Source: Rosistilla carotiformis
Lineage (GTDB): Bacteria; Planctomycetota; Planctomycetia; Pirellulales; Pirellulaceae
Direction: 5' to 3'
Length of the DNA stretch: 64,000 nt
Assembly: GCF_007753095.1 (NCBI RefSeq)
Contig: NZ_CP036348.1
Span: 6,673,411 to 6,737,410, forward strand
Numbering within the stretch: position 1 is the stretch's first letter; every line of letters begins with the position of its first letter. Made by a program: the position numbers and the translations under genes. Positions 26,920 to 45,593 of the stretch are shown piece by piece. Below the pieces are notes generated by a model. It was not told where the DNA came from. It made no database searches and saw nothing but the letters and a program-made list of their open reading frames with translations.

Positions 26920-28698
26920 TTACCGATGACTCACTGGCGGCGCCGAACGATCAACCTGTCGCCGCGACTTTGGCACGCCAAGCGACGTCGGCTGGCTCGC
27001 CTCAATCGGTTGGTAGGGGCTCTTGGAGAGAGGCGTTTGCGTACCGATCGTGCGTACGATCACCTGGGGCGAGCGGCTGGCGGTGAGCGGCGGTTTGGAT
27101 TCCTGCGAAGGGATGGATTGCATGGGCGGCGCAGGCTCCGCTTGGATGATTGGCGCGGGAGCGCAGTTGCTGATCGCTTGGTCCGCCGCGCTCCAACCGC
27201 CGCCGAGCGTTCGGTAGATCGCGATGATCCCAAGGGCCGCTTCGCCACGAGCCAGGGCCAACAGATCTTGTTGGCGAACGAGGTCTTTGCGCAATTCGTT
27301 GACGCGATCGAATTCAACCGTCCCCTCTTCATATTGCAGCGTGGCGATTTCGATCGATTCAGCGGTCGCCGCAACCGCTCGCTCGCGACTCGCGATCTGC
27401 TCCCGCGCTTTGACGAATCGAACCATCGCATCCTCCACCTCGCTTCCCGCTTTCAAAACCGCCTGGCGGTATTCGACGATCGTCCGCTCCAACCGCGTCT
27501 CCTGAATCTGGACGTTGTTCATCAGACGGCCATAGTTCAACAAGTTCCAGCGAACCCCGGGGATGATCGCTCCGGCATTGGCTGCCGATTCGAACAGGTC
27601 GGGAAAATTGAACGATTGCCAATTGATGGTCCCGCGCAGCGAAAACGTTGGAAACAGGTCGGCTGCGGCGACGCCGATCAGCGCACTTTGCGAGGCGATC
27701 GCCCGTTCGGCGCTGCGAATGTCGGGACGCCGACGCAGCAGATCGACCGGCATTCCGACCAAGATCGCATCGGGAGTCGTCGGGACGCCGGCCCACCCCA
27801 TCTGCGCGATCAGATCCCGCGGGGAGAGCCCCAGCAGAACACACAGTCGGTTGTTCGCAACACGTAGACTCCGTTCCAGTTCGGGGATCGCGGCCCGTGT
27901 CGCTTCCAGATTGGCCCGCGCCTGCGTCACATCCAGCTTGGAGACCGAACCGTTCTTGAATCGCGATTCGGCCAGCTCCAACGTTTTCTGCTGAGCTTTG
28001 ATATTGGCGTGTGCGAACACGAGGCGATCTTGGTTGGTGCGGATCTCGATGTAAGCCGCAATCGCGTCGGAGACCAACGACAGCTTCACGTCGCGGCGGT
28101 CTTCGATCGTCCCCTGCACCTTGGCTCCTTCGGATTCGATCTGACGCCGCAAACGCCCCCAAACATCCAGTTCCCAGTTGGCGTTAAAGCCAAATTGATA
28201 GAGGTCGAACGTATTGCCGAGATCGGCGATTCCGATCTGGTTCCCGTTGTCACTGTTTTGGATCCGCTGGAACTCCGCGAAAAACTCCTGCGATTGCGGC
28301 AGAAGATTTCCCACCGCAATGGCCCGCTGCAATCGGGCCTCTTGGATTCGCAGCATCGCGATCCGCAACGGCAGATAGTTGGTCTGGGCGGCCGAGACGA
28401 TCTTTTCGATCTCCGGATCTCCGAACAACCGCCACCAGTTCTCGTCGTCGACGCCATTTTGCGAACTGATCAGCTTGGGATTGTTGAAATCGATCCAATG
28501 CTCCGCAACCGCGGCGGTGGGAGCGACATGATCGGGGCCGACTTTGTGACCGTTGGTTTTCCATTGAGCCAGGTAGCCGCAGCCTCCCAGCGAGAGCAGC
28601 CAACTAACCACCCACAATGCCAGACCGACCGCGCGGATCCGCCCACCCAACGGGCAGGCAGCGGCAGCGATCGGGCGGTTGGGGTCGTTCGATAGCAT
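26920..28698 (-). CDS. Outer-membrane efflux lipoprotein (TolC/OprM/NodT family)
   Basis: A 592-aa protein starting at the ATG at 28698. A lipoprotein signal (WVVSWLLSLGGCGYL) is followed by VAEHWIDFNNP and WWRLFGDPEIEKIV, typical of NodT-type outer-membrane factors. The two repeated halves contain LRIAMLRIQEARLQRA, DLFPTFSLRG, VRWNLLNYGR and a tail with YRTLGGGW. It would form the trimeric exit channel for an RND or MFS pump. Its last 90 residues are a Pro/Ser/Gln-rich extension. It is divergent from the adaptor gene at 29105, so it likely completes the RND pump beside the polyketide cluster. Confidence 0.9.
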   Translation of the reverse strand: MLSNDPNRPIAAAACPLGGRIRAVGLALWVVSWLLSLGGCGYLAQWKTNGHKVGPDHVAPTAAVAEHWIDFNNPKLISSQNGVDDENWWRLFGDPEIEKIVSAAQTNYLPLRIAMLRIQEARLQRAIAVGNLLPQSQEFFAEFQRIQNSDNGNQIGIADLGNTFDLYQFGFNANWELDVWGRLRRQIESEGAKVQGTIEDRRDVKLSLVSDAIAAYIEIRTNQDRLVFAHANIKAQQKTLELAESRFKNGSVSKLDVTQARANLEATRAAIPELERSLRVANNRLCVLLGLSPRDLIAQMGWAGVPTTPDAILVGMPVDLLRRRPDIRSAERAIASQSALIGVAAADLFPTFSLRGTINWQSFNFPDLFESAANAGAIIPGVRWNLLNYGRLMNNVQIQETRLERTIVEYRQAVLKAGSEVEDAMVRFVKAREQIASRERAVAATAESIEIATLQYEEGTVEFDRVNELRKDLVRQQDLLALARGEAALGIIAIYRTLGGGWSAADQAISNCAPAPIIQAEPAPPMQSIPSQESKPPLTASRSPQVIVRTIGTQTPLSKSPYQPIEASQPTSLGVPKSRRQVDRSAPPVSHR

Positions 28699-29104
28699 GG
28701 GGCGGTCGATTTTGGAGATCGCTAGCAGGCTGCCGGCTGTGGCGTAGGTCCGATTATTCCGGCCCCAACGTTCATGTAGCTTATCTCGGCACACAGGCCT
28801 GGCTAAAATTGGCATAAGCCTCACCCACCTTAATGTCGACTCAGCCGCCCCTTCTCGCTGCGCTACCGCATTCCCCGCAGCCCTCGACACCTACCTAAAC
28901 TGAGTTTTTTTCCATATTTGCTTTCTTTCGGATGCGATTCTGGATGCCAAACCTCGACTGCCTAGCTAAACTTGGCTAGCAAAGTGCAGTGAAAACGTCA
29001 TTTCCCTGCCAACAATTGCGTTTTCGATCGGTGGGGTCCTTGCCATTCTGCGGCGTCGCATTCCCCTCCGAAATGTTATCTGGAATCCACCGTTATCAAG
29101 ATCC
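28699..29104. promoter_or_regulatory. Divergent promoter region of efflux genes
   Basis: About 400 bp between the divergent outer-membrane factor and RND adaptor genes. No coding frame looks real. It should hold the promoters for both sides of the pump and possibly the polyketide genes. No TetR-like gene or convincing operator was found. Confidence 0.4.
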
Positions 29105-30625
29105 ATGAACGAACAAGAGGCCCCCTATCGAGCGCCGCTTACGACCGCTGGACGGCGTCGCGGGGGAGGAATCCAAGTTGCCTTGGCGACGATGCTGTTG
29201 GTCGCCGTGGCGATCGGCGCCGGGCTCGCCGCATCGTCGATGCGGCGTTCCGATCATCCGGCAACCGACCGCAGCCTGGGCGAAAGCTCGCGACCGCACA
29301 CAGCGGGTGGAAACGCGTCGACGTTGCCGGTCGAAACGATGCAGGTTCAACGCGTGGAGAGCTACGCTCGCGAGCGAACGTTCACCGGAATCATCAAACC
29401 GGCGCGCCAGAGCGAGCTGAGTTTTGAACGCCAGGGAGAGGTCGTCGAAGTCTCCGCGGATCTGGGCGATCGGGTCGAAAAGGGGCAGCCTTTGGCGCGG
29501 ATCGGCGATCGTCGACTGAAAGTCAAACGGCTGGGGCTCGAAGCGCAGCACCGCGAAGCGCTGGCGGTCCTTGCCGAACTGGAAGCCGGGCCGCGCAAGG
29601 AATCGATCGCGGCTCAGCGTGCGACAGTTCAAGACCTTGCCGCCCAGGCCGACGCCGCCGACCAGATGGCCAAACGGCGGCAGCGGTTGTTGCTGGCGAG
29701 TGCTTCGTCACGCGAAGAAGCCGAGCAGGCGGCCTTTTCATTGACGGCGGTGGAAGCTCGATTGCAATCAGCTCAGAAGGTGCTCGATGAATTGACAGCC
29801 GGTACGCGTCAGGAACGGTTGGACGCCCAGAAGGCGATCGTGGCCCAGTTCGACGCGTCGATTCAAGATGTTGATATCGAGATCGAAAAGAGCCAGATAG
29901 TCGCCCCTTACGATGCGTTTGTCACCGAGCGGTCGGTCGACGAGGGATCGATCGCCCAACCGGGGTCGACGATCTTCCGGATCATCGAAGACACATCGCT
30001 GGAAGTTTGGGTCGGTGTTCCGGCAGCGATCGCCGCATCGATCCAAACGGGCGAAACATTGCCGGTGATCGTTCGCAAGCAATCGTTCGATGCGACGGTC
30101 CGATCGCGGATCGCGGACCTGGATCATCAAACGCTCACCCAAACCATCGTCTTGACACTCGACAACGTCTCGCCGCAGCAGATTGTCCCGGGCGAAGTCG
30201 CTCGGTTGGCGTTCACTCAAGAGATTCCAGTCGATGGTTTCTGGATCCCGTTGGCCGCGATCTCACGCGGCGGCCAGGGACTGTGGTCGGTTCTCGCGGT
30301 CGTCGGCGATGGCGATGAAACGACCACGACGGAGCGACGCGATGTCGAACTGATCGAAACGCAAGGCGAACGGGCGCTGGTCCGCGGGACGCTGGAAACC
30401 GGCGACTGGATCGTCTCCAGCGGAACGCATCGGCTGACGACCAAGCAAGCGATCCGCGTTCCCGAACCGACTGATGACGTCGACGAATCGGCCCCCCTCC
30501 CCGCGACCGAACCCGCGTCGCAGGATGGGATGTCGCCCGCCGAAAAACCTCCCGAACCATTGGACCTCGTCCCCACGCCACGCTCGGATCGTCCGATCGC
30601 TTCGCTCGCCCCGACCGCCAGCTAA
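29105..30625 (+). CDS. RND efflux periplasmic adaptor (HlyD/MFP family)
   Basis: A 506-aa protein with an N-terminal transmembrane anchor at residues 22-42. The barrel-sandwich halves are visible in VVEVSADLGDRVEKGQPLARI and its later partner VAPYDAFVTERSVDEGSIAQPG. A helical hairpin of about 100 residues lies between them. The beta-barrel and membrane-proximal regions follow, and the C-terminal 60 residues are Pro/Glu-rich. Adaptors link the inner-membrane pump to the outer-membrane factor. The pump gene begins 19 bp downstream, so they form an operon. Confidence 0.9.
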   Translation: MNEQEAPYRAPLTTAGRRRGGGIQVALATMLLVAVAIGAGLAASSMRRSDHPATDRSLGESSRPHTAGGNASTLPVETMQVQRVESYARERTFTGIIKPARQSELSFERQGEVVEVSADLGDRVEKGQPLARIGDRRLKVKRLGLEAQHREALAVLAELEAGPRKESIAAQRATVQDLAAQADAADQMAKRRQRLLLASASSREEAEQAAFSLTAVEARLQSAQKVLDELTAGTRQERLDAQKAIVAQFDASIQDVDIEIEKSQIVAPYDAFVTERSVDEGSIAQPGSTIFRIIEDTSLEVWVGVPAAIAASIQTGETLPVIVRKQSFDATVRSRIADLDHQTLTQTIVLTLDNVSPQQIVPGEVARLAFTQEIPVDGFWIPLAAISRGGQGLWSVLAVVGDGDETTTTERRDVELIETQGERALVRGTLETGDWIVSSGTHRLTTKQAIRVPEPTDDVDESAPLPATEPASQDGMSPAEKPPEPLDLVPTPRSDRPIASLAPTAS

Positions 30626-30644
30626 ACGCCAACCTCGATAATCC

Positions 30645-33600
30645 ATGCTCTCCAACCTCTTCTACCGGAATCGACGACTGCTGTGTCTGGCGGTGGGGCT
30701 GATCTTTGTCGCCGGGCTCTCGTCGTACAGCGTCCTGCCGCGGGCCGAGGATCCCGAACTGACGCCACGCTTTGCGATCGTGAACACCGTCGTGCCAGGC
30801 TTCAACGCGACCCGTGTCGAAGCGTTGGTGACCGAACGCGTCGAACAAGCGATCCGCGAGATCGATGAGGTCAAAGAGATCACGTCGTCCAGCCGCGCCG
30901 GGGTGTCGACGATCGGAATCGAACTCAACGCCAACGTCTACGCTGTCGATGAGGTTTGGTCGCGGGTCCGCGACAAGATCGACGCGGTGGCCCACGAATT
31001 GCCCGCCGGAACGCTCGACCCCGTCTTCGAAAAGGTCAAGATCAAGGCGAACGCGATGCTCGTTGGGATCACTTGGCAACGCGACGGAGATCCGAATTAT
31101 TCGCTGTTGCGCAGACTGGCCAAACAACTGAAGGAACAACTCGAACGCATCGCCGGAACCGAGTCGGTCGATCTGTATGGAGCTCCCGATGAAGAGTTCT
31201 TGGTGACGGTTAAACCGGAAGAGTTGGCGGCGTTGAAGTTGACGGCCAGCGATATCGCCGACCAATTGGCCCGCAGCGACGCCAAGGTTTCGGCTGGCCA
31301 GTTGCGCGGCGCCAGCAGCGATCTATTGATGGGGATCGACAACGAACTCGATTCCGAACGTCGAATCGCCGGGATGCCGATCCGGACCTCCGACGACGGA
31401 CCGGTCGTGCAATTGGGCGATGTCGCGGAGATCCAACGCGATGTCGTCCGTCCGCTGACAAACGTGGCCGTGATCGACCGCTTGGATGCGGTGGTGCTGG
31501 GGATTCGCGTTCGTTCCGAGTATCAGATCGGTCCCTGGAATCGCGATGTCACCGGGCGATTGGCTGAATTTGAATCCTCCCTTCCGCCAGGGATCGGCAT
31601 CGACAAACTGTTCGACCAGAACGACTACGTCGACAAACGCTTGGCAGGTCTTGGCCAGAATCTGTTGTTGGGTTGTCTGGCCGTCTTTCTGATCACCTTT
31701 TTGATGATGGGCTTGCGGAACGCGTTGGTCGTCTCCTTTTCGCTCCCGCTGTCGTCGATGATGGTCCTGGCTGGGATGCGTCTTTTGGAGATTCCGATCC
31801 ACCAGATTTCGGTCACCGGATTGATCATCTCGCTTGGCCTGTTGATCGACAATGCGATCGTTGTAGTCGACGAAACCAGTCATCGGATTCGCGAGGGTTC
31901 CGCTCCAGCCGATGCCGTCGCCGCCGCAGTCAAACATCTGTTGGTGCCGTTGTTTGGTTCGACGCTGACGACCGCGCTGTCGTTTGCCCCGATCGCCATC
32001 ATGCGCGGCCCCGATGGCGAGTTTGTGGGAGCGATTGGTGTCAGCGTGATCCTCGCGATCGCCAGTTCCTTCCTGTTGGCGGTGACGATCATTCCCGCGC
32101 TGGCAGCGATGGGAAGAGTTCGGCCAGACAGGTCGCATTGGTTCGCATGGTTCGATCGCGGGCTGGCGATCAAACCTTTGGCCGCTGCCTATCGCTCGCT
32201 GCTTCAGATGTCGCTTGCCGTGCCAGCGCTAGGGATCGCGTTGGGCTTGGTCGCTCCGATTCTGGGATTTTTGATGGTCGGAAGCTTGCCGATCCAATTT
32301 TTCCCGCCGGCCGATCGCGATCAGGTCTACATCGATCTGGAATTGAACGCCCATGCTTCGATCCACAACACACGCGACACAGCGCGTCGTTTGACCGAGA
32401 CGCTGACCGCGCATCCGGCGGTCGACGCAGTCCATTGGTTCTTGGGCGAATCGGCTCCCACGTTCTACTACAACGTCGTTCGCAGCCGACGGAACCTGCC
32501 TTCGTATGGACAAGCGATCGTCAAGCTTCGCACGGACGTTGCCACTCCCGAGATCATCCACGACTTGCAAGCGTTGGTCGACAATCGCTGCCCATTTGCT
32601 CGCGTCTTGGTCCGCCAGTTGGAACAGGGGGCCGGCTTCGATGCGCCGGTCGAGGTCCGCGTCCTTGGCCCCGATCTCGATCAACTGCGTCGCTTGGGAA
32701 CCGAGTTCCGCGACCTGCTGGTCTCGACGCCGGGCGTGATCCACAGCCGTGTGCAGTTGGACGAAGCGGTTCCCAAAGTCGCGTTTTCGATCGACGAAGC
32801 CGAAGCTCGAATCGCGGGGCTCAGCCACGAAGCGATTGCCAACCAATTGCAGACCACGCTCGAAGGGAGCACCGGAGGGGCGGTCGTCGAAACGACCGAG
32901 CAGTTGCCGGTCCGCGTCCGCGCGGGGAATCAACGCCGTTCCAGTATGTCCGAGATCGCGTCGATCAATCTGCTGGCTTCCCAACCGGGCCGCAGCGGAT
33001 CGTCGATTCCGATCTCCGCGATCGCCACGATCGGACTGGAAGCCGACAGCGCCGAGATCCCGCGACTCGATGGCCAACGCATGAACGAGATTCAAGGCTT
33101 CATCCCCGCGGGCATGTTGCCTTCGACAGTCATCGACGATTTCAAACGCAGGATCGCAAGAGCCAACATCCAATTGCCCACGGGGTACAGCATTTCGTTT
33201 GGAGGCGAAGAGCAGACCCGCAACACCGCCGTCGACAACCTGATGGCCAGCGTCGTGGTGATCGTCGTGCTGATGGTCGCGGCGATGGTGCTGACCTTCG
33301 GATCGTTTCGGTTGGCAGCGTTGATCTTCGTTGTCGCCGGTCTCTCGTTTGGCATCAGCCATCTTGCCGTCTGGATTTCCGGATATCCCTTTGGGTTCAT
33401 GGCGATCGTCGGATCGATGGGGTTGGTCGGCGTTGCGATCAACGATTCGATCGTCGTACTGGCAGCGATCCGTCAGGATCCCGCGGCACGAACTGGCGAC
33501 CACGACGCGTTGGTCGATGTCGTGATGCGATCGACGCGGCACGTCACGGCAACCACTCTGACCACCATCGCTGGTTTCACGCCTCTGTTTTTAGCTGGTG

Positions 33601-33749
33601 GCGGTTTCTGGCCGCCGTTGGCGATCACGATCGCTGGCGGTGTCGGCGGTGCGACCCTGATCGCATTGTTTTTTGTCCCCGCAGTTTATGTCTTGATCGC
33701 AGCGGCTCAAGAGCAGCCGGAGATCAGCCCGTCCATTCAAGCAACATGA
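30645..33749 (+). CDS. RND efflux pump permease (AcrB/MexB-like superfamily)
   Basis: A 1034-aa protein of standard RND length with 12 predicted helices and two large periplasmic loops. Landmarks include SVLPRAEDPELTPR near the start, the TM4 region LGLLIDNAIVVVDE and the TM10 region LVGVAINDSIVVLAA. The acidic pair of AcrB TM4 appears as Asp-Asn, and the usual TM10 lysine is not in place. This suggests a divergent proton relay within the superfamily. The gene lies between the adaptor gene (19 bp) and the polyketide synthase gene (76 bp), all in one direction, so export of the cluster product is the best guess. Confidence 0.9.
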   Translation: MLSNLFYRNRRLLCLAVGLIFVAGLSSYSVLPRAEDPELTPRFAIVNTVVPGFNATRVEALVTERVEQAIREIDEVKEITSSSRAGVSTIGIELNANVYAVDEVWSRVRDKIDAVAHELPAGTLDPVFEKVKIKANAMLVGITWQRDGDPNYSLLRRLAKQLKEQLERIAGTESVDLYGAPDEEFLVTVKPEELAALKLTASDIADQLARSDAKVSAGQLRGASSDLLMGIDNELDSERRIAGMPIRTSDDGPVVQLGDVAEIQRDVVRPLTNVAVIDRLDAVVLGIRVRSEYQIGPWNRDVTGRLAEFESSLPPGIGIDKLFDQNDYVDKRLAGLGQNLLLGCLAVFLITFLMMGLRNALVVSFSLPLSSMMVLAGMRLLEIPIHQISVTGLIISLGLLIDNAIVVVDETSHRIREGSAPADAVAAAVKHLLVPLFGSTLTTALSFAPIAIMRGPDGEFVGAIGVSVILAIASSFLLAVTIIPALAAMGRVRPDRSHWFAWFDRGLAIKPLAAAYRSLLQMSLAVPALGIALGLVAPILGFLMVGSLPIQFFPPADRDQVYIDLELNAHASIHNTRDTARRLTETLTAHPAVDAVHWFLGESAPTFYYNVVRSRRNLPSYGQAIVKLRTDVATPEIIHDLQALVDNRCPFARVLVRQLEQGAGFDAPVEVRVLGPDLDQLRRLGTEFRDLLVSTPGVIHSRVQLDEAVPKVAFSIDEAEARIAGLSHEAIANQLQTTLEGSTGGAVVETTEQLPVRVRAGNQRRSSMSEIASINLLASQPGRSGSSIPISAIATIGLEADSAEIPRLDGQRMNEIQGFIPAGMLPSTVIDDFKRRIARANIQLPTGYSISFGGEEQTRNTAVDNLMASVVVIVVLMVAAMVLTFGSFRLAALIFVVAGLSFGISHLAVWISGYPFGFMAIVGSMGLVGVAINDSIVVLAAIRQDPAARTGDHDALVDVVMRSTRHVTATTLTTIAGFTPLFLAGGGFWPPLAITIAGGVGGATLIALFFVPAVYVLIAAAQEQPEISPSIQAT

Positions 33750-33825: not shown

Positions 33826-36800
33826 ATGACCGATCAACCGCTTGCAGTCGTAGGGATGGCCTGCCGATTTCCGAAGGGACTCGATAGTATCACGCAACTC
33901 TGGGAAGCCCTGAAAACGAGGTTCAACGCAATCGATACGATCCCGGCGGACCGTTGGGATGTCGATCGATATTATTCGTCCAATCCGGTCTCCAAAGGGA
34001 AGGCGTACATTCGGCGTGGCGGCTTTCTCCATCAAGATCCAACGACCTTTGACGCTTCGTTTTTTGGGATCTCGCCACGCGAAGCGGAGAACATGGACCC
34101 GCAGCAACGCCTGATGTTGGAGGTTGTTTGGGAAGCGTTTGAAAATGCGGGGATCCCGCTGCCCGATCAAGCGGGCAAATCGTTCGGTGTCTACGTCGGC
34201 GGTTTCATGTTGGACCACATGATCACGCAGATGTCGTCGCGGAATCGTTCGCAGATCAACCAGCACAGTGCTGCGGGGATGATGATGACGATGCTCTCCA
34301 ACCGCATCTCCCACACCTACGATCTCCGCGGCCCCAGCTTGTCCATCGACACCGCCTGCTCGTCGTCATTGGTCGCGTTCCACTATGCCTGCCAAGATCT
34401 CTGGCGTGGGACGGCGCAGATGGCGATCGTCGGGGGCGTGAATGTGATGATGCGTCCCGAATATCCGATGGGGATGTGCAAGGGACACTTCTTGTCGCGC
34501 GATGGCGAATCGAAATCGTTCGACGCTCGCGGTGATGGCTACGGACGCGGCGAAGGAGCGGGCGTTGTGCTGCTGAAGCCGTTGGAACACGCGCTCCGCG
34601 ATGGAGACGAAATCCTCTCAACAGTGATCGGATCGGGAACCAATCAAGACGGCTGCACGGCGGGGATCTCGATGCCCAGCGGCGATGCCCAACGCGCGTT
34701 GATCCAGTCGGTTTGCGAGCGTTACCAGATCCATCCGCTGCAGATTAAATATGTCGAATGCCACGGCACGGGAACCGCGATCGGCGATCCTACCGAATGC
34801 CAAGCGATCGGCGAAATCTATGGCCAAGGCCGCCATGGCGAAGACCGCGTCGTGATCGGTTCGATCAAAAGCAACACCGGACACATGGAAGCGTGCGCGG
34901 GGATCGCCGGCGTGATCAAAGGCGTGCTGACGACGATCTATCGCCAAGCCGCTCCGCTAGCCAATTTACAAACGCCCAACGAAGCGATCGAGTTCGAAAA
35001 ACTGGGGCTCCGTCTAGCGGACGATCTGATTCCATTGGGCCGCGGCGACGAACCAATCTGCGTCGCTGTCAATTCGTTTGGCTACGGCGGTTCCAACGCG
35101 CACGTGATCTTGCAATCGGCACCGGCTCACCACGCCCAGCCAAATTTTGCAAAACACCATTGCAATGGAAAGTCGCACGCAAACGGGCATCCGCAGGGCA
35201 ACGGATCGGCCCATTGCAACGGCAATGGGAATGGAAAGCCGCTCGATGGGGTCGCTTTGCTTTCGGGAAATGCGAGTCTCAATCCACATGAACTGCCGCT
35301 GATGTTGCCGGTCAGCGCGCGTAGCACAGAAGCCCTAAGAGCTAACGCAGGGAACCTCGAATCCTGTTTGGCAAATGAGGGAGAATTGCACGATGTGTTG
35401 TATACCGCCGCTCGGCGCCGGGCGCATCTTGCCCAGCGGGCCGTTGTGATCGGCAGCGATCGCAGCGAATTGCGGCAAGGACTTCGCTCGCTCGCCGAAG
35501 GGCAGGACTCACCGCATGTCGTCGTCGATTCGCAGCCCTTCCAAGGACGCCGCGAGTGTGTCTTTGTCTTTACAGGGATGGGGCCGCAGTGGTGGGGCAT
35601 GGGGCAGGAACTCTATCGCAAATCGGACATCTACCGGCAAGCGGTCGCGCAAGCCGACATGCTCTTCCAAGAGATCGCGGGCTTTTCGATCCTGACCGAA
35701 ATGCTCAAGGGCGAATCGAGTTCGCGGATCTCGCGAACCCAATACGCTCAACCCGCGAACCTGTTGATCCAAATCGGTCTGTTGGAAATGTTGGAAGACG
35801 CTGGCGTCACGCCCGCCGCCAGTGTTGGCCATTCGGTTGGTGAACTCGGTTCGGCCTATGCCGCGGGCGTGCTGAGTCTCGAAGATGTCTTGACTGTCAG
35901 TTACCATCGCAGCCAATTGCAAGCGACGACAGCCGGAACCGGTTCGATGCTGGCGGTCGGGATTGGCAAACAGGAAGCGTTGCAGCGAATCGCGGGAATG
36001 GGCGATCTCGTTTCACTGGCAGCTGTTAATGGAACCAACACCGTGACGTTGGCGGGGGACACCGACACGCTGACCGAACTGTCGCGCCAATTCACGGCGG
36101 CCGAGATCTTCAACAAAATATTGACCGTCGAAGTTCCCTATCATAGCCCGTTGATGAATCCATTGATGGCAGCCTTGGAACGCCGGTTGTCCGGTTTGCA
36201 GACAAGCGCTGCCAAGATCCCGCTCTATTCGACAGTCACCGGTCGCTTGGTGACCGAGGCTTCGTTCGACGCGTCGTATTGGCCGCTGAACATCCGCCAG
36301 CCCGTTGAATTTGCCGATGCGGTCGATTCGATTCTGGACGACGGATACAACACGTTTTTAGAAGTCGGTCCGCACCCCGTGCTGTCGTCGGCGCTCCGCG
36401 ATTGCATCCACGCCGCGGGGAAGGAATGCCGGTTGGTGCACACGCTGCATCGCAAGCAGCCCGAAATCCAAACCGTTCACCGCGCCATCGCCGGAGTTTT
36501 TACGGCCGGATGCGAATACGAATGGTCCCGCCTGTATCGCACCGGAAAACTGGTTTCGTTGCCCAATTACGCCTGGCAGCGCGAGCGATTGTGGTTGGAA
36601 AACGACCGCGCCGCGCAGGACCGCATCAACCCGATCACCCATCCCATTTTGGGAACCCAGGAAGCGCTCTCGGCTCCCGTTTGGCGGAACGACTTCGACC
36701 ACGAAGCCGTTGCCTACTTGAGAGATCACATCGTCGCCGGCATCCCCGTGCTGCCGGCGGCGGCCTACATCGAATCGCTGCTGGAACTGGCGGCGATCCA

Positions 36801-39800
36801 GTTCCCCGACGGGGCGAAGTTGGCAATTCGCAATTTGCGGATCGCGGCGCCGATGATCATCGCTCCCGACCGTGGACTCGATTTCACGACCACTTACGAC
36901 GCGTCCCGGCAATCCGCCCAGATCCGCAGCTTGGAAAATGGACGTCTCGGCACGGGGCAGGTCCATGTCACCGCGTCGATCGCTCCGCTTCCCGCTTCCG
37001 AAATGAAGGCGATCGATCTGCCGGACCTGCTTACAAAATTCGACAAGCCGGCGGATGTCGATTCCTTTTACAGGGAACTGCGGCAAGTCGGATTGATGTA
37101 CGGGCCCTATTTCCAAGCGGTCAAAGAACTTCGCATCGGTCGAACCGATCGTCAGGTGCTGGCGCGAATCGAAATCGACGACACGCTTCGCGAACATCCC
37201 GCCCCATACAAAATGCACCCGACGCTATTGGATGGTTGCTTCCAAACGTTGATGTCGCTGTTGGTCCATTCGGATACAACCTATCTACCGACACAGATCG
37301 GTGAACTCTGCCTGTATGTCGATTCGCTGCCCGACACGGTTTGGTGCCTCGGCAAAATGACAGCCCAAACCGATCGGCAGATCACTTGCGACCTGACCCT
37401 TTGCGACGACCAGGGTCAGGTTGTCGGTGTGGTCCGTTCGCTGGTGGCGACCGCCGCCAATCGGCCGCAACGGACCGACCAGTTCGGCGACGTCGTCAAG
37501 CGACAGATCCTCGATTACCAATGGCGAATCGCCGATACGCTCGACGAACCGCGCCGACTGGGGCATTGGTTGGTGGTGGGAGCTTCCAACGATGTGGCTC
37601 AACAGGTTTCGATGCAGATCGAAAACTATGGCGCGATGATTTCGGGAAGAGTCGAGTTTGGCGATGCCTTTGTCGACGACGGCGGCCTGTTTTGCATCCG
37701 TCCCGATTCGATCGACGACGCGCGACAGGTATTGAACCGCTGTGGCGAATTGGATGGCGTCGTCTTCTTCAACAGCCTCGACGTGATGGTTGCCGATCAG
37801 GATCCGACGGGCGAACAATCGATCGCAGCCCTCGTCACGATGACCCAAGCGATGTTGGAGATCGATCCCACGAAACGACCACGAGCCTATGTTGTCACTC
37901 AGTCGGCGTTTGCTGTCGATGAAGAGGATGGCCCAGTCGATCCGCGTCAGACGGCCGTCAACGGTTTTGTTCGCGTCGCCGCCAACGAACTCGAAGGCTT
38001 CCATTTCACGTCGATCGATCTACCGGCGTCGACTGATCACGCGACCTGCGACGCCGTCGCATTGGAACTGTTGTGCGACGCGGCGGAGGATGAAGTTGCG
38101 ATTCGGCACCTCGCCCGTTGGACCAGCGAGTTGCTGGAATCGCCTTGCCTGGACGACGATCGAATCGAATACCGAATCCCCGACGATCAACATCCAATTC
38201 AGATCCGACCGTTGCGGCCCGGTGCCGAACAGGTCGGAACGGTCCGAATTCTGGCCGCTCCCCAACCGGCGATCGGTCCCCACGACGTGCGGGTTCGCGT
38301 GGAAAAGTCGTTGCTGCCACTGAATTTGGTTTTGGATCAATCGGCGGATCATATCGAACAACCGCTGATCGAAATCGTCGGAACGATTCTCGAAGCTGGC
38401 GACGAAGTCGACGATTTGCGTGCCGGCATGCAGGTCTGCGGGTTTGCTCCCGCCGATCTCGCCAGCCAGCTATCCGGTCGCCGCGCTCGCTTTCATCTGG
38501 TCAAAATTCCATCGACGGACCATGCATCCCAGTTAGTTGCTAACGTTGGGATCCTCGCTCGAGCACGTTGTGCTCTGCATGGGATCGATCTCGAATCGGG
38601 CGACGCGGCGCTAGTCGATACGAGTCCGATGTCGCTGGCCGTTGCCGAATTGCTCGCCGCACGCGGCGTGCGCGTCTCGGTAGTGACACAGGATGTGGCG
38701 TCGGCCATGCAAAATCTGCCGTCGAATTACAACATCGTTCCCGCTTGTCCGGAGAGCCTTCATGACGCGGTGCAGCAGGAAACGGGAGGGCGTGGTTTTG
38801 CGGTGCTGGTCGCGGGAATGCAGGCTTGGCTGACATCGTTCGATCTGCGTGTGATCGTCGATGGTGGCGCGGTGATCGATACCGACGACATACCTCAAGC
38901 GTTCTCCTTGCCGCCGACGATCGCTGCGATTGCCAGGACCGATCTGGCTGTCTTGGCAACCAAACCGTTGCGGCTCCGCGCCGCGCTGGAGCATGTTGTC
39001 GGCGAGCTGCTGAAAAACGAATCGCCCGAGTGTTCGGCGCTAGAAGTTTCGGTGGCCGATGTTGCGTGGCAGGTTTTGCCGCTGCGTGAAACCAAAACAC
39101 AAGTCGTGATCTCCTACGACACCCGCGGCCAAGATCTGCCGATTGTGCAACGCGACGATCTGCGTTTGCGGACCGACGCAACCTATCTGATCACTGGCGG
39201 ATTTGGGGGCTTCGGCCGCAAGACCGCTCGTTGGTTGATCGAACAAGGCGCCCGGCATCTCGTGTTAACCGGACGCGCCGGCGCTGACGATGACGACAAA
39301 AAAGTGTTCGTCCAGGAACTCGAAAGCCTCGGCGCAACGGTTCATGCCGTGGCGTGCGATACGTCCGATTTCGGCCAGGTTCAGTCGCTGTTGGACGCGA
39401 TCCAAAACCAGATGCCTCCGTTGAAGGGAGTCTTCCATTCGGCGGCGGTGATCATGGATCAAGCGATTGCCGACATCGAGCTTTCCAACCTGCAAAACGT
39501 GCTGCGCAGCAAGGCCCTGGGCGCATGGAATCTGCACCTCGCTACCGAGGATCTCGACCTCGATCACTTTGTGCTCTATTCCTCGCTGGCCAATCAAGTC
39601 GGCAACAGCCGGCAAGCGTCCTACTGTGCGGCCAATGGTTTCCTGAACGGTTTGGCTCACCATCGCAGGGCGATCGGACTGCCGGCGACAAGCGTCTGCT
39701 GGGGAGCGATCTCGGATGTCGGCGTCGTCGCTCGAGATGAAAAACTGGAGCAGTTCCTGAGGTATGTCGGTCTGCGTGGGCTGCCATCGGCAGAAGCGTT

Positions 39801-40317
39801 GGGCTTGCTGCGGCAGGGGCTCGCCCGCGATGTGACGCAGTTCGGCATGGTCCTGATCACCTCCTGGGCCGATTGGGCGCGGTTCGAAACCTTGGGGGGC
39901 AAGTCGCCTCGCTTTGCCGCGTTGATCGAAGCCGATTCGGCACCGCAAGACAACGCCTTGCGCGATCAATTGATCGAAGAACTCTCGGGGCTCAACGACG
40001 CCGACCAGATCGATCTGGTTGCCGGACTGATTCGCGAGATCGTTGGCGTCGTCCTCAAGTCGGATCCCGAAGCGATCGCCGTGGATCGGCCGGTCAGCGA
40101 ATTGGGAGTCGATTCGTTGATGGCGACCGAGATCCAACAAATGTTCGATAGCCAGCTGGGACTAAAAGTTTCGGTCCTCGAATTAGTCGGTGAAGCCACG
40201 ATCCGATCGCTGGCGGTCGGATCACTCGCTTCCCTTGGAACGGCAACCTCGCTGCCCAGCAAGTCGGCCAGCCGACCGGCAGCGTCGTTGGATCCCACAG
40301 CGGCCGCCCCTGTGTAA
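33826..40317 (+). CDS. Type I polyketide synthase, KS-AT-DH-(degenerate ER)-KR-ACP
   Basis: 2163 aa. KS (residues 1-430) has Cys178 (DTACSSSLV), His313 ([10 protein letters not shown]) and His353 ([10 protein letters not shown]). A His/Asn/Gly-rich linker lies at about 435-480. AT (about 570-880) has Ser670 in GHSVGE. DH (about 930-1210) has His968 in [10 protein letters not shown] and Asp1136 in DGCFQ. Then come a KR structural half and an ER-like part (about 1460-1720) in which the nucleotide loop is lost: around 1598 it reads [10 protein letters not shown] has TGGFGGFG (1790-1797) and Tyr1933 (YCAAN). The ACP serine is Ser2097 (LGVDSLMA). No thioesterase or methyltransferase is present. 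The downstream oxoamine synthase and enoyl reductase fill these gaps. Probably iterative, since there is only one module. Confidence 0.95.
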
Positions 40318-40401
40318 ACCAGCGTTTAAAAATTGCAGTGCCCGTTTCCACCGCGACACCAGACAACCACATGACGATGCAGCAACGAGAGTCCAAACAA
40401 C

Positions 40402-41748
40402 ATGAGCGTTAAATCGAGCCTCGAGCGATTGAAGATGCAGATCCGGCGGGAGAGTTCCGATTCGGAAGAGGATAACGCCGCGAAGAAACCGCCCCAATCG
40501 CGCGGCGAAGTCAAAGCTTCGCCAGCCTTCTATCAATTCGACAAGTTTCCCGAATACAAAGAATTCACCACGATGGAGTGGTACCTGGATAAGGAGAAAT
40601 ATCCACGCACCCAGTTCCTCAAGCGGCTTTCGGTTTCCGATGCGACAGTGAATCTCGAAGGTCGCGAGATGATCAACTATTCGACCTACAACTATCTTGG
40701 GCTGGCCGGGGATGCCCGTGTCAAAGAGGCGGCCAAACGAGCGGTCGACACGTTTGGAACCAGCACCGGTTCGGGGCGTTCGATCACCGGCGAGATCGAA
40801 TTGCACCGGGCATTCGAAAATGAGATCTGCGAGGTTCTGGGAACCGAAGATGCCGTGCTGTCGGTCGGCGGATACAGCACCAACACGTTTGCCATCGGTT
40901 ATCTGTGTCGCAACAAAGACTTAATCCTCTACGACGAACTGATCCACAATTCGGCGCTGGCCGGATGCAAGATGACCGCGGCGCGACGAATCGGTTTCCC
41001 ACACAACGACTACGAAGCGTTGGAGGCTCTGCTAGCCGAGAACCGCGGTAAATTTGAACGCGTGTTGATCCTGGTCGAAGGGGTCTACAGCATGGATGGC
41101 GACATCCCCGACCTGCCTCGGTTGATCGATATCAAACGAAGGTACAAGGCGTTGTTGATGGTCGACGAAGCGCATTCCTTTGGAATCATCGGCCCCAACG
41201 GTTTGGGCGTCACCGATTACTTCGACTTCGATCCGCACGACGTCGACATCTATTTCGGTTCGCTGAGCAAATCGTTTGGAACGTGCGGAGGCTACATCGC
41301 AGGCCCCAAGCCGCTGATCGCGATGCTCAAATATTTTGCTCCCGGCGTGTTGTTATACGGCGCCGCGCCGACACCCGCCAACACCGCTGCGGGGCTGGAA
41401 GCGCTGCGGATCATGCGGGCCGAACCCCAGCGGGCGCGGCGGCTTGTCGACAACGCCCGCTACTTTGTCCAGCGTGCCAAAGCGGCGGGGCTAGACACCT
41501 ACAACAGCCACGATTCGGCAGTCGTTCCGCTGATGTGCCGCGATTCTGAACTGGCGTTATGGCTTTCAATGGCGTTGTTTGGACAAGGGATCTGCGCCTA
41601 CCCGATGCTGCATCCGATCGTCCCACGCGACAAATCGCGCCTGCGATTTTTCATCAACACCTTCCATACGCACCAGCAACTCGATTACACGATCCAGTGC
41701 ATCGTCGACAACCTGCGCGTCGCGCCGAAATCGAAGGGGGTGTTTTAG
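40402..41748 (+). CDS. Alpha-oxoamine synthase (PLP; AONS/SPT-like)
   Basis: A 448-aa fold-type I PLP enzyme of the group that condenses an amino acid with an acyl thioester with loss of CO2 (8-amino-7-oxononanoate synthase, 2-amino-3-ketobutyrate CoA ligase, serine palmitoyltransferase). Motifs: YNYLGLAGD, GSGRSITGEIELH, LVEGVYSMDGD, VDEAHSFG and the PLP lysine Lys290 in GSLSKSFGTCGG. About 60 N-terminal residues precede the core, more than in BioF. It follows the PKS by 84 bp and there is no biotin gene nearby, so its acyl donor is most likely the PKS-bound chain, as with FUM8 in fumonisin synthesis. Confidence 0.88.
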   Translation: MSVKSSLERLKMQIRRESSDSEEDNAAKKPPQSRGEVKASPAFYQFDKFPEYKEFTTMEWYLDKEKYPRTQFLKRLSVSDATVNLEGREMINYSTYNYLGLAGDARVKEAAKRAVDTFGTSTGSGRSITGEIELHRAFENEICEVLGTEDAVLSVGGYSTNTFAIGYLCRNKDLILYDELIHNSALAGCKMTAARRIGFPHNDYEALEALLAENRGKFERVLILVEGVYSMDGDIPDLPRLIDIKRRYKALLMVDEAHSFGIIGPNGLGVTDYFDFDPHDVDIYFGSLSKSFGTCGGYIAGPKPLIAMLKYFAPGVLLYGAAPTPANTAAGLEALRIMRAEPQRARRLVDNARYFVQRAKAAGLDTYNSHDSAVVPLMCRDSELALWLSMALFGQGICAYPMLHPIVPRDKSRLRFFINTFHTHQQLDYTIQCIVDNLRVAPKSKGVF

Positions 41749-42749
41749 TGTCTGGCATGAAACAGATTCGATTTGAAAAGTTTGGCCCGCCAAGCCAAGT
41801 CGCCAAATGCGTGACCGTCGCTGCAGTGGGCGAACCGTCGGCGTGGGAGGTGGTTGTCGACATCGAAGCGTTCCCGATCAACCCAGCCGATCTGGCGACA
41901 TTGGCGGGCCGCTACGGCTCGCTCCCCAAATTGCCCGCCGCGATCGGGATGGAAGCTGTCGGACGGGTGGCGCGGTGCGGCGAAGCGGTCAAAGATTTGC
42001 AAGTCGGCGACCGTGTGATGGTGACCGCCAACAACAACTGGGCTCAACAGCGAAAAGTTCCCGCCGCGGCCGTGCACAAATTGCCTGCCGAAGGGGACCT
42101 GCATCAGTTTGCGTTGATGAAAGTGAATCCGGCGACGGCGCTACTGTTGTTGGAACACGATGGTCAATTGAAGCCCAAGGACTGGTTGATTCAGAACGCG
42201 CCATTATCGAGCGTCGGTCGCTGCATCATTCAGATCGCGCGGGTTCAAGGTCTGCGGACGATCAATGTCGTGCGACGCCCCGAATCGATCGACCACGTCA
42301 AACGTTTCGGTGGCGATGTCGCGGTTGTCGACGGGCCCCAGTTGGAACAACGCGTCCGCGAAGCGATCAAGAACCAACCTTTGCGATTGGGGCTCGATGC
42401 CGTCGCCGGTGCGAGCACCAGTCGCTTGGCCGCGTGCCTTAGCGAAGGGGGAACGATCGTCAACTATGGGATGCTGTCGGGGGAGGAGTGTTGCATCGGT
42501 GGCGACCAGTTGATCTTTCGCGGCATCCGCTTGGAGGGCTTCTGGCTGTCCAAGCGTTTGAATCGCATGACCTTGCCACAACGAACGGCACTCTATGACG
42601 CGATCAGCGAGATGATCGCACGGAAAACGTTGCACTTCGAAGTCGATTCGTCCTTCGCGATGGATGAGATCGCCGCCGCGCTGGCTCGCGCCGAAGAACC
42701 GGGGCGCAGTGGCAAAGTGATAGTTTCTGTTGCCGGACAATCCGCCTGA
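41748..42749 (+). CDS. MECR/ETR1-like enoyl thioester reductase (MDR superfamily)
   Basis: A 333-aa protein. The GTG at 41748 overlaps the upstream TAG and has AAGGGGG 7 nt before it; an ATG at 41757 is the alternative. The sequence follows mitochondrial trans-2-enoyl reductases: NPADLATLAGRYGSLPKLPA, with the catalytic Tyr, then GMEAVGRVARCG, and the cofactor loop QNAPLSSVGRCIIQIA in place of the common GxGGVG. No zinc ligands are seen. It should reduce enoyl-ACP double bonds with NADPH. That is the activity whose domain has decayed inside the upstream PKS. Confidence 0.88.
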   Translation: MSGMKQIRFEKFGPPSQVAKCVTVAAVGEPSAWEVVVDIEAFPINPADLATLAGRYGSLPKLPAAIGMEAVGRVARCGEAVKDLQVGDRVMVTANNNWAQQRKVPAAAVHKLPAEGDLHQFALMKVNPATALLLLEHDGQLKPKDWLIQNAPLSSVGRCIIQIARVQGLRTINVVRRPESIDHVKRFGGDVAVVDGPQLEQRVREAIKNQPLRLGLDAVAGASTSRLAACLSEGGTIVNYGMLSGEECCIGGDQLIFRGIRLEGFWLSKRLNRMTLPQRTALYDAISEMIARKTLHFEVDSSFAMDEIAAALARAEEPGRSGKVIVSVAGQSA

Positions 42750-42762
42750 ATTCGATTTCCCT

Positions 42763-43953
42763 ATGCAAAGAACTCAGCGAATGCCGACATCGAACGAAGC
42801 TGTCAAATTGCAGCATGATGCCGGCGCTGCGCCCACGGCGGCGGAAGCTGTCCGGGCGATCGACGGCATCGCTCCCACAACGGGAACTGCGCGGCAGGTC
42901 GCCGACGGCGTGTGGTGGATCCGTCTGCCCGTTGCCGCCGGGCCGGGGCATGTCAATGTCTATGCGTTGCAAGATCGCGATGGCATCGTGTTGGTCGACA
43001 CCGGAACCAACGCGCCGCAAACGCTGCAAGCTTTGACGGAGGCTCTTTGCATCTTAGAACCAAATCACGGCACGATTCGCCGCGTTGTGGTGACACACCA
43101 CCATCCCGATCACATCGGGCTGGCGGGGTGGTTCGCCGAGCGCGGAGCCGAGATCGTGGCGACGCGAGGGACCCTCGCCGTGGCGCATCGCATGTTGCAC
43201 GACAAGACGCTGTCGCGGACGCCCGAAGAGATCGATTTTGCAGTCCTCGCTGGTATGAAGGATCTGGAATTGGCTGCCTTCATCCGCCGCCCCAAGCGAC
43301 GCTACGCCGATGGCGTTGCCATGCTGCCCAACGCGACCAGCGTCATTGCCGACGGGGAAACATTGCAGATTGGAAAGCGTTGCTGGACAGCCATCGTTGG
43401 CAACGGGCACGCGGTCGATCATCTGACGCTCTGCTCCAACGACGGGCTAGCGATCACCGGCGATCAAATCTTGCCCGGCATGTCGACGAACCTAAACGTT
43501 CCGGCAGACCAACCCGACTTGGATCCGATTTCCGCTTGGCGAGACACCTGTCGCCGTATCGGCGAACACATCGACGAGCGATCGGTCTGCCTGCCCGGAC
43601 ACCATACTCCGTTCACGGGAATCGCGATTCGATCTCGGCAGATGGCTGCCAGCCAAGAGGCAGTCGTGTCTCGGTTGCTGGAACATCTGCAGCGGCCTCG
43701 GACGGCGATCGATTGCCTGGCGGCGATCTATCGACGGACGTTAAGCCTTGCAGAACGAGCGTTTCTGTTTCCCGAAGCGGTCGGCTACATGAACCATTTG
43801 GCCAACCGTGGCGAGATCGTTGGCCTGCGGCGCGGCAAAACGATGGTCTGGCAAAAACAGCGTCGCCCACGCGGCGATACGATCCGGCGCGAGGCCTCAC
43901 CGGCAATCTCGCGTCCGTACAACTTCTCTTCCGAGGTCGATGAATCCCGATGA
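42763..43953 (+). CDS. Metallo-beta-lactamase-fold hydrolase
   Basis: A 396-aa protein. I chose the ATG at 42763; another ATG at 42781 is possible. Metal ligands are complete: THHHPDH, GNGHAVDH, ITGDQIL and CLPGHHTPF. The C-terminal 90 residues form a small helical/winged part as in LACTB2-type proteins. MBL-fold enzymes hydrolyse thioesters, lactones or phosphoesters. In this gene order a thioesterase that edits or releases ACP-bound chains is a reasonable guess. It starts just after the reductase stop and its own stop overlaps the next start by ATGA. Confidence 0.85.
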   Translation: MQRTQRMPTSNEAVKLQHDAGAAPTAAEAVRAIDGIAPTTGTARQVADGVWWIRLPVAAGPGHVNVYALQDRDGIVLVDTGTNAPQTLQALTEALCILEPNHGTIRRVVVTHHHPDHIGLAGWFAERGAEIVATRGTLAVAHRMLHDKTLSRTPEEIDFAVLAGMKDLELAAFIRRPKRRYADGVAMLPNATSVIADGETLQIGKRCWTAIVGNGHAVDHLTLCSNDGLAITGDQILPGMSTNLNVPADQPDLDPISAWRDTCRRIGEHIDERSVCLPGHHTPFTGIAIRSRQMAASQEAVVSRLLEHLQRPRTAIDCLAAIYRRTLSLAERAFLFPEAVGYMNHLANRGEIVGLRRGKTMVWQKQRRPRGDTIRREASPAISRPYNFSSEVDESR

Positions 43954-45593
43954 AAAACGAACAGACAGATCGATACGATGCCATCATCATCGGTTCGGGC
44001 TTGGGAGGACTGGCGACCGCCAGCCTGTTGTCGCAGATGGCTGGCAAACGCGTGCTGGTGTTGGAACGCCACTCGAAGCTGGGTGGCTTCACGCATTGCT
44101 TCCGCCGCAAGCATCACGAATGGGATACCGGAGTCCACTACGTCGGCGAGATGCAATATGGATCGCAAACCCGCCAGGTGATGGACTTTGTCACCGGCGG
44201 CGGGATTCAATGGAACTCGCTGGGCGATCCCTTCGAACACTTCGTCTTTCCTCAAGAGACGTTTGATCTACCGGACAACCAGCCCGACATCCTCGCGGCG
44301 CTCGTGAAACGTTTCCCCGACGAACAAGATGCGTTGGAACAATACTTCCGCGACATTCAAAAGATGCGCGACTGGATGGTCCGCTGGTATGTCGGCAAGA
44401 CGCTGCCCGATTGGATGGCGTCGCTGTTGACGATGTTTCGACGCCGGATGGCGACGATGAACACGGGAGAATATCTAGCCAAGCAATTTGGGGATCCGTT
44501 TCTCCGCGCGGTGATTGCCGCTCAGTGGCCCGATTTTGGGACGCCGCCGTCGGACAGCAGTTTCGCCTTTCATGGGATCGTCAGCGGCGACTTCCTCAAC
44601 GGCGGCTACTTCCCCGCCGGCGGTGGAACGGTGCTGGCGGAGCATACGAAAGAGGTGATCGAAGCCCATGGCGGAGCCTGTTTGGTCAATCGGTCGGTGA
44701 AAAACATCCTGATCGAAAATGGGAAAGCGACAGGTGTTGTGGCGATCCGTAAAGAGAAGGAAGTGACCTACCGAGCACCGATCGTGATCTCAAACGCTGG
44801 TGGCGTGATCACGTTTGGAAAACTGTGTCCCGAAGGGCATGGCCAACGCGAACGAAATCGCATCGCACGGATGACACCGGGGCCTTCGGTCAACGTCTTG
44901 TATTTGGGGCTGAAAGAGGATCCGCGGAAGCATGGCTTCGACGCGGGCAATTATTGGCTGTACGCGCGGACCGACCACAACTTGGAAGCCGATCCCAACA
45001 ACCCGGAGCAGGTCGATGGGTGTTACTTCGGCTTCGGTTCGCTGCGCAATCCGGGCCAGGAACCTCACACCGCGCAGATCATCAGCTTCAGCGAGGACCG
45101 ACACTGGGCGCGGTGGGACAACACCAAGTGGAAGCGTCGCGGCGAGGACTACGAACAAAAGAAAGCCGCGACGGCCGAGGCGTTACTGGATCATGTGGAG
45201 TTGTTTTTCCCCGGCTTTCGCGACCTGATCGACTACCAAGAACTCTCCACGCCGCTCACCGTCAAGACCTTCACCGACCATTGGCACGGCACGATCTACG
45301 GCAGCGTGTGCAACCAGCATCGACTCTATCGCGACCGCTGGCCAGTGAAGACATCGGTCAAGAATCTGTATCTGACCGGCAGCGATGTCGGAATCCCCGG
45401 AGTCAACGGCGCGCTGATGTCGGGCGTGATGACAGCCGGAACATTACTGGCCCCGCTGGGACTTGGCGTCGCGCGGATCATGATGCGAGCCGAACGGGAA
45501 CACAAGCGACGGGCAAAGCAGACGGCCGACACAGCCGCGTCGCCGTCAATTGTTGACACAGCTCTCGATCGCAAAGAAGAGGTCGGCGTCTAA
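43950..45593 (+). CDS. FAD-dependent oxidoreductase, retinol saturase/CrtI-like
   Basis: A 547-aa protein. The N-terminus has the FAD-binding IIIGSGLGGLATAS followed by LVLERHSKLGG and DTGVHYVGEM, as in all-trans-retinol saturases and carotenoid desaturases. The C-terminus has NLYLTGSDVGIPGVNGALMSG. These enzymes saturate, desaturate or isomerise conjugated polyenes. It is the last gene of the polyketide run, overlapping the upstream gene by 4 bp. It may act on the hydrocarbon tail of the product, but a carotenoid role cannot be excluded. Confidence 0.85.
   Translation: MKNEQTDRYDAIIIGSGLGGLATASLLSQMAGKRVLVLERHSKLGGFTHCFRRKHHEWDTGVHYVGEMQYGSQTRQVMDFVTGGGIQWNSLGDPFEHFVFPQETFDLPDNQPDILAALVKRFPDEQDALEQYFRDIQKMRDWMVRWYVGKTLPDWMASLLTMFRRRMATMNTGEYLAKQFGDPFLRAVIAAQWPDFGTPPSDSSFAFHGIVSGDFLNGGYFPAGGGTVLAEHTKEVIEAHGGACLVNRSVKNILIENGKATGVVAIRKEKEVTYRAPIVISNAGGVITFGKLCPEGHGQRERNRIARMTPGPSVNVLYLGLKEDPRKHGFDAGNYWLYARTDHNLEADPNNPEQVDGCYFGFGSLRNPGQEPHTAQIISFSEDRHWARWDNTKWKRRGEDYEQKKAATAEALLDHVELFFPGFRDLIDYQELSTPLTVKTFTDHWHGTIYGSVCNQHRLYRDRWPVKTSVKNLYLTGSDVGIPGVNGALMSGVMTAGTLLAPLGLGVARIMMRAEREHKRRAKQTADTAASPSIVDTALDRKEEVGV

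Follow-up and report, generated by a model that had tools for sequence, protein, structure and literature searches.

The closest described relative of the locus treated here is the SgaAB system of P. fluorescens MYb115, in which the polyketide synthase (PKS) SgaA and the alpha-oxoamine synthase (AOS) SgaB make C24–C28 sphinganines (PMC12134224). In the available part of that 2025 paper, the authors present SgaAB as the first PKS cluster demonstrated for sphingolipids, count 6,101 homologous clusters, mostly in Burkholderia, and propose the short-chain dehydrogenase/reductase (SDR) SgaC as the ketone reductase of the pathway. A gene cluster of related logic lies in the planctomycete Rosistilla carotiformis, within a stretch of 64,000 nucleotides (contig NZ_CP036348.1, positions 6,673,411 to 6,737,410; hereafter the window) of a complete 7.44 Mb chromosome. 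As with SgaA and SgaB, one type I PKS, presumably iterative, stands with one AOS that would off-load the chain with an amino acid. SgaAB differs in its preference for serine and in SgaC, and the accessible text mentions no counterpart of the free enoyl reductase (ER), the MBL-fold hydrolase, the retinol saturase (RetSat)-like protein or the RND pump unit found here (PMC12134224). On the evidence set out below, the R. carotiformis cluster is likely to be a biosynthetic and export unit for a long-chain alpha-amino ketone, with an ER acting in trans, off-loading by the AOS, tailoring by the RetSat-like and MBL proteins and export by the RND pump.

Release of a PKS chain by an AOS is also known from fumonisin synthesis, where FUM8 releases the chain of FUM1 with an amino acid, alanine being used. 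That system shares AOS release with the window and differs in being fungal, in its accessory genes and in its use of alanine. Capsule-type loci such as L102, whose genes we take to be those named RkpA/RkpG/RkpH in Sinorhizobium and WcbR/WcbT in capsule clusters, likewise carry a mono-modular PKS/FAS followed by an AOS. They differ in that the ER domain within the PKS (cis-ER) is intact by Pfam and by a profile hidden Markov model (HMM), an SDR gene follows the AOS gene in L102 and L105, and capsule genes surround the pair. Five proteobacterial plasmid loci, situated within or close to capsule-type genes, have a PKS gene that adjoins the AOS gene or is separated from it by one gene. The wcbR/rkpA and swf PKSs are treated in PMC3908369 and PMC4245539, as far as the available parts of these papers extend. 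Among partly accessible work on the host group, Planctomycetes are listed among the phyla with pyridoxal phosphate (PLP) domains in PKS/NRPS lines (PMC3870968), a study of planctomycete type III PKSs does not mention oxoamine synthases in the text available (PMC10896814), and four PKS/NRPS-type clusters with <10% similarity to known ones are described in one Rosistilla strain (PMC8303584). A literature search, based in part on excerpts, did not return the five-gene set described below, and it gave no match for a retinol saturase with a PKS in a biosynthetic gene cluster.

A conserved and rare gene set

The cluster was recognised in a preliminary description as five same-strand genes for a PKS, an AOS, an ER, an MBL hydrolase and a RetSat-like enzyme, at 33826-45593. 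All five are confirmed as open reading frames (ORFs) on the plus strand:

33826..40317, +: mono-modular type I PKS, KS-AT-DH-(decayed ER)-KR-ACP, 2163 aa (Pfam, catalytic motifs)
38266..39135, +: decayed cis-ER domain of the PKS, aa 1481-1770 (predicted structure, HMM)
40402..41748, +: AOS, 448 aa (Pfam Aminotran_1_2)
41757..42749, +: MECR-like free ER, 330 aa (Pfam ADH_N/ADH_zinc_N)
42763..43953, +: MBL-fold hydrolase, 396 aa (Pfam Lactamase_B, 70.3 bits)
43950..45593, +: RetSat/CrtISO-like FAD protein, 547 aa (Pfam Amino_oxidase/NAD_binding_8)

The starts of the ER and MBL genes were revised to 41757 and 42763 from relatives and local sequence, as the listed ORFs began too early. With these starts the gaps are 84 bases (PKS-AOS), 8 bases (AOS-ER) and 13 bases (ER-MBL), and the MBL and RetSat-like genes overlap by 4. 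A scan for promoters and terminators, as signs bearing on co-transcription, gave 2 promoter-like sites where 4.1 are expected by chance, and 21 terminator-like ones where 17.8 are expected. The absence of a thioesterase, noted earlier, agrees with Pfam, which finds KS-AT-DH-KR-ACP and no thioesterase match in the PKS. The decayed ER domain and the pump genes upstream had been overlooked.

The PKS-AOS-ER-MBL core is present in all 12 genomes with a close AOS (65–100% identity), nine from Planctomycetota and three cyanobacterial metagenome-assembled genomes (MAGs). These are three genomes of the window's own genus, G520, G612, G676, G737, G771, G804 and the MAGs, named Phormidesmis priestleyi, Thermosynechococcus sp. 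and Chamaesiphon sp.; L108, L109, L110 and L113 come from the same genomes as L118, L093, L117 and L095 and were counted once. AOS identity is 65–70% in the other planctomycete genera and the MAGs, and the gene order first seen in the window recurs in both, which speaks against a chance arrangement. The AOS gene directly follows the PKS gene in 12/12, placing the two side by side as in SgaAB, so the lack of co-conservation that would have spoken against a functional link was not found. The set is sparse, occurring in 9/241 genomes of the window's family, its own included (E <= 1e-150). An AOS at E <= 1e-90 was found in 19/386 cyanobacterial genomes, and only that of G813 is of the cluster kind; G814 and G815 came from a separate search. 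The cluster is thus a conserved but rare gene set of the PKS-AOS type with several new features.

The cyanobacterial loci have a GC content of 45–47% and the planctomycete loci 50–60%. In the AOS tree the cyanobacterial copies are nested among planctomycete ones (support 93/99), which suggests transfer between the two groups, though the cyanobacterial cases are MAGs.

The AOS belongs with carrier-linked enzymes

The closest solved structures to the AOS are the serine palmitoyltransferases (SPTs) 3a2b and 8guh, ThAOS (8s1y, 7poa) and SPT subunit 2. The PLP lysine Lys290 and His182, Asp255, His258 and Arg415 are kept, the catalytic residues having been checked in seven cluster rows. In a tree of 70 rows, the cluster AOSs fall within a 56-row clade (support 100/99) of AOSs that are PKS-adjacent, PKS-fused, part of AMP-ligase-type fusions or from capsule loci. 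The clade thus unites them with AOSs from PKS-AOS loci elsewhere; SPT 3a2b, Thermus KBL/AOS and E. coli Kbl lie outside. The tree covers a selection of loci, contains neither a BioF reference nor SgaB, and omits L001, L003, L004, L006 and L007, where no AOS match was present. Its label 'FAAL fusion' was set by ORF length, L044 alone being Pfam-checked, and branches beyond the 56-row clade are long and partly unreliable.

NCBIfam models place the AOS below every relevant cut-off. Scores against cut-offs are 277.7/640, 249.1/500 and 191.6/670 bits for SPT and 284.6/460 and 239/493 bits for Kbl (glycine C-acetyltransferase). The top model is bioF at 310.5 bits (cut-off 426.45), which is also the top model, yet below its cut-off, for the five other carrier-linked AOSs scanned. 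Canonical SPT was rejected as the family of the enzyme on these cut-offs, a Kbl-like housekeeping AOS on cut-off scores together with its separate tree position, and a BioF-like one on the cut-off score alone. The grouping with Kbl that had been named as a possible refutation does not appear in the 70-row tree.

At eight positions all 12 cluster AOSs share a residue that is not the one carried by at least 85% of 43 others. Two are glycines: Gly125 (12/12) stands where 41/43 other carrier-clade AOSs have Ser, and Gly320 (12/12) where 40/43 have Ser. Gly125 aligns with Val79 of ThAOS, for which a distance of 3.5 angstrom to the substrate C-alpha is predicted, and the V79G and V79A variants show activity with 16/33 amino acids tested (PMC11906848, available part). 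As V79G broadens the range of ThAOS, the pocket of the cluster AOS is probably more open than usual. The accessible part of one paper describes an ACP-dependent AOS with cysteate as substrate (PMC9304779).

A decayed cis-ER and a conserved free ER

The KS, AT, DH, KR and ACP motifs of the window PKS are intact. KS identity is 69–75% in the clusters outside the genus, with one short fragment (L120) at 60%. The segment between DH and KR has no Pfam family match and no PDB sequence match, but its predicted structure (mean pLDDT 80) resembles quinone reductases, MECR and the PKS ERs CurK, CurF, JamJ and MAS, with a query TM of 0.57–0.70 and 13–19% identity among the 50 matches listed. A non-ER identity for this segment was rejected on the fold search. 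Neither Pfam nor the HMM finds a recognisable cis-ER of the kind present in ten comparators. The NADPH motif occurs in 0/12 cluster PKSs versus 8/10 comparators, and Pfam ADH domains in 0/4 cluster PKSs scanned versus 3/3 comparators. The ER HMM gives the cluster PKSs 9.9–25.9 bits (n=12) and the comparators 354–550 (n=10); it was trained on the eight comparators with the NADPH motif, and the two outside the training set score 354 and 371.5. The same HMM gives the free ER of the window, which is of another subfamily, 64.6 bits.

Of the PKS domains, the cis-ER segment shows the lowest conservation in each of the clusters from other genera (28–41% versus 39–75%). The PKS is under purifying selection (omega 0–0.21 per domain), and within the genus the cis-ER is also constrained, with omega of 0.175 and 0.195 in two comparisons that gave 0.123 and 0.206 for KR. 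Judged by its predicted structure and motifs, the cis-ER has retained its fold and lost its NADPH motif in 12/12 clusters.

The free ER, present in 12/12 clusters, has the mitochondrial enoyl thioester reductases 7ayc/7ayb/2vcy/1zsy as its best PDB matches. Its [SG]xVG cofactor loop is found in 10/10 examined, and it scores below every NCBIfam cut-off. As the cis-ER appears dead in 12/12, the free ER probably serves the PKS in trans. LovC is reportedly a precedent for a trans-acting ER.

MBL hydrolase and RetSat-like flavoprotein

The MBL gene is present in 12/12 clusters and its best PDB matches, 6ao1, 5u8o and 5i0p, are three MBL proteins of unnamed function. The HxHxDH motif was found in 10/11 examined and not in L117. 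'RetSat' is the name given to the flavoprotein in the preliminary description and does not come from a search result. The protein belongs to the CrtI/CrtISO superfamily and is below the cut-off of all 25 NCBIfam models listed, with 129.4/586.9 bits for CrtISO and 116.3/238.1 for the CrtI family. RetSat/CrtISO-like enzymes act on conjugated polyenes. A RetSat-like gene is present in 10/12 clusters, the other two contigs ending first, and the three cyanobacterial clusters carry 2, 3 and 3 copies. Compared with two non-cluster relatives, the cluster copies make up a clade of their own, with planctomycete and cyanobacterial groups inside it. Of three RetSat relatives outside such clusters, in G121, G685 and G553, the first two have no PKS beside them in 20 kb. 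Late-step roles for the MBL and RetSat-like proteins are guesses.

Export genes and borders of the cluster

Upstream of the PKS gene, Pfam identifies an RND pump, a HlyD adaptor and an outer-membrane channel, which together make up an RND tripartite efflux system:

26920..28890, -: outer-membrane efflux protein (TolC/OEP type), divergent (Pfam OEP, 157.8 bits; start codon uncertain)
29105..30625, +: HlyD-type periplasmic adaptor (Pfam HlyD_3/HlyD_D23)
30645..33749, +: RND-family pump (Pfam ACR_tran, 508.7 bits)

The genes at 26920-33749 are probably part of the same unit as those from PKS to RetSat; gaps of 19 and 76 bases separate HlyD from RND and RND from PKS. The OEP is 92–93% identical over the available part in two same-genus genomes. 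An OEP-like gene (35–39%) beside the cluster and a HlyD homologue within it occur in L094, L095, L117, L118 and L119, and an RND homologue (41–46%) in L094, L095, L118, L119 and cyanobacterial L107/L145. HlyD and RND genes lie between MBL and RetSat in G520 and G612, where OEP precedes PKS, and in G737 and G771, where OEP is last. In G612, G737 and G771 (loci L095, L118, L119) the MBL and HlyD homologues share a single ORF of 862-882 aa, and Pfam found both parts in the two joint ORFs scanned (L095, L119). Only OEP and HlyD are visible before the contig end in G804. Among the cyanobacteria, the contig of MAG G813 continues past its RetSat genes with RND and HlyD homologues. In G815 a HlyD adaptor, an FtsX/MacB permease and an ABC ATPase are encoded directly upstream of PKS, and in G814 the same three types lie ~2.8 kb past its RetSat genes. 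Export genes thus lie near 11/12 clusters; the twelfth, G676, does not bear on the pump, as its contig breaks off behind MBL, and two upstream ORFs encode PSD1/PSCyt and DUF1501 proteins. Pump genes beside or inside the clusters support the earlier suggestion that the product is secreted.

Downstream, a calcineurin-like phosphoesterase gene (45822-47447, -) is convergent with the RetSat gene and may mark the border of the cluster.

Related architectures

Related AOSs are fused to a PKS in the planctomycete loci L041, L046 and L048 and in Planktothrix L099, and adjacent to one in L039. The four fusions follow the same logic as the window in one polypeptide. They differ in that their ER domain scores 354–505 bits and in that homologues of the free ER, MBL and RetSat proteins of the window are absent from the 20–25 kb available around them. 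In L041 (3213-18659, G107) the fusion is followed by three small genes and then HlyD-like (27%) and RND-like (22%) genes, making it a possible further PKS-AOS with a pump. Another PKS-AOS architecture by its domain matches is the 2,044-aa protein of L042 (9150-15284, G107), with KS, AT and AOS matches and none for DH, ER or KR. On a plasmid of Streptomyces anthocyanicus, a 1,607-aa protein (L104:6290-11113) with KS-like, AT-like and AOS parts adjoins an MMPL transporter. In L100, L101 and L103, PKS and AOS genes occur together with LTA-synthase-family genes; through these loci, the lipid anchors of capsules may be connected to the phosphoglycerol sphinganines described for SgaAB.

A further AOS in the window's own genome (L044:7431-10790, C1 ~5352430-5355789) is part of an AMP-ligase-ACP-AOS fusion by Pfam. 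Such fusions resemble the window in that a carrier-bound chain would be passed to a related AOS, and differ in using an AMP-ligase to activate the chain, which is not PKS-made. An AOS at E <= 1e-60 was found in 349/396 genomes of the order, most of the matches listed lying in frames of ~1,080-1,260 aa, so the fusion may be near-universal there. A similar AMP-binding enzyme is named in Synechococcus in the available part of PMC3870968.

Proposed pathway and alternatives

Sequence shows the gene content and order, their conservation, the active-site motifs, the AOS clade and the lost cofactor motif of the cis-ER. We infer the following course, with every one of its reactions, iteration, trans ER, choice of amino acid, late steps and export of this product. 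The PKS (KS-AT-DH-KR-ACP) would build an acyl chain iteratively on its own ACP, and with the PKS ER dead, the MECR-like free ER would reduce some or all double bonds in trans. Release would not be by hydrolysis but by decarboxylative condensation with an amino acid on the AOS, giving a long-chain alpha-amino ketone. Gly125, and possibly Gly320, would open the pocket, which suggests that serine is replaced by another amino acid or that the enzyme accepts a wider range. Remaining conjugated double bonds would probably be isomerised or saturated by the RetSat-like flavoprotein, the MBL hydrolase could act at the inner membrane in a late or editing step, and the RND pump would export the product, which may be a membrane lipid and is perhaps not serine-derived. 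Compared with SgaAB, the features that appear new are the lack of an SDR ketone reductase in the cluster and the Gly at the AOS site matching ThAOS V79G. More tentative, and with the balance somewhat against it, is the wider proposal of an undescribed class of exported polyketide alpha-amino ketones in Planctomycetota and Cyanobacteriota, made with a trans ER, a non-serine amino acid and one to three RetSat-like enzymes.

Several observations weigh against this pathway or parts of it. L047, a 1,109-aa AOS fusion, is placed outside the carrier-linked clade, and the stem of the cluster AOSs is long (1.34). In the accessible texts, SgaB strongly prefers serine over alanine and glycine (PMC12134224), and ThAOS V79G is most efficient with L-Ser among the four original substrates (PMC11906848), so Gly125 alone cannot exclude serine. 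The comparators L039 and L041 also lack the NADPH motif under the pattern used yet score as ERs, so the motif alone proves little, and in one of the two within-genus comparisons the rate of the dead ER is matched by that of KR (omega 0.206 for KR versus 0.195). A working trans ER and a polyene-acting RetSat are compatible only with partial reduction. RND pumps, which are common, could serve general efflux, the RND genes form a separable upstream block in the window's genus, and the ABC exporter of G814 lies ~2.8 kb off behind opposite-strand ORFs. Finally, the cyanobacterial cases are MAG contigs.

The cluster might instead be of the SgaAB/RkpA-RkpG type, condensing L-serine with a fully reduced chain to a 3-ketosphinganine lipid or lipid anchor, with RetSat, MBL and pump as accessories. 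The shared PKS and AOS logic (PMC12134224, in part), the pairs in the five proteobacterial plasmid loci and the conserved AOS catalytic residues fit such a pathway, but it is unlikely given the two glycines where most carrier-clade AOSs have Ser and the conserved RetSat and export genes. Moreover, no KDSR-like SDR was found by Pfam among the window genes at 26920-47447 or 19 flanking ORFs elsewhere, the rest of the genome not having been searched, and no LTA-synthase gene among the window genes scanned or those ORFs. The earlier reading of a PKS-AOS amino ketone stands in silico for off-loading to an alpha-amino ketone, on the clade support of 100/99 and the PKS-AOS fusions in three planctomycete loci. 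Its 'sphingoid-like' part, taken strictly, is less supported, with no SDR in the cluster, the SPT cut-offs missed and Gly for the usual Ser in 12/12.

A variant of the proposed pathway in which most cycles stop after DH is possible though doubtful. RetSat-like enzymes would then isomerise or partly saturate an exported polyene serving as pigment, antioxidant or allelochemical. The dead cis-ER and the RetSat/CrtISO-like enzymes in 10/10 readable clusters, with 2–3 copies in cyanobacteria, speak for it, whereas the free ER is retained with its cofactor loop (10/10 examined) and the CrtISO cut-off is missed by a wide margin in the RetSat-like protein (129 versus 587 bits). Far less probable than either, and hardly to be expected, is release of a free acid from the PKS by the MBL protein, with the AOS a bystander acting on unrelated CoA esters like BioF or Kbl. 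MBL-type thioesterases do release some fungal polyketides and bioF is the top model for the AOS, but at 310.5 bits it misses the cut-off of 426, PKS-linked AOSs elsewhere show an equal pattern, and the tree position, the fused and adjacent PKS-AOS pairs in other genomes and the AOS directly after PKS in 12/12 all speak against it.

If the proposed pathway is correct, SgaAB chemistry would extend to planctomycetes and possibly to cyanobacteria. The added features would be perhaps a different head group, a split-off ER, RetSat-like tailoring and a pump of its own. The cluster would then offer a natural test of one AOS pocket residue setting the choice of amino acid, and it would be a compact target in the search for new lipids or pigments that are exported.

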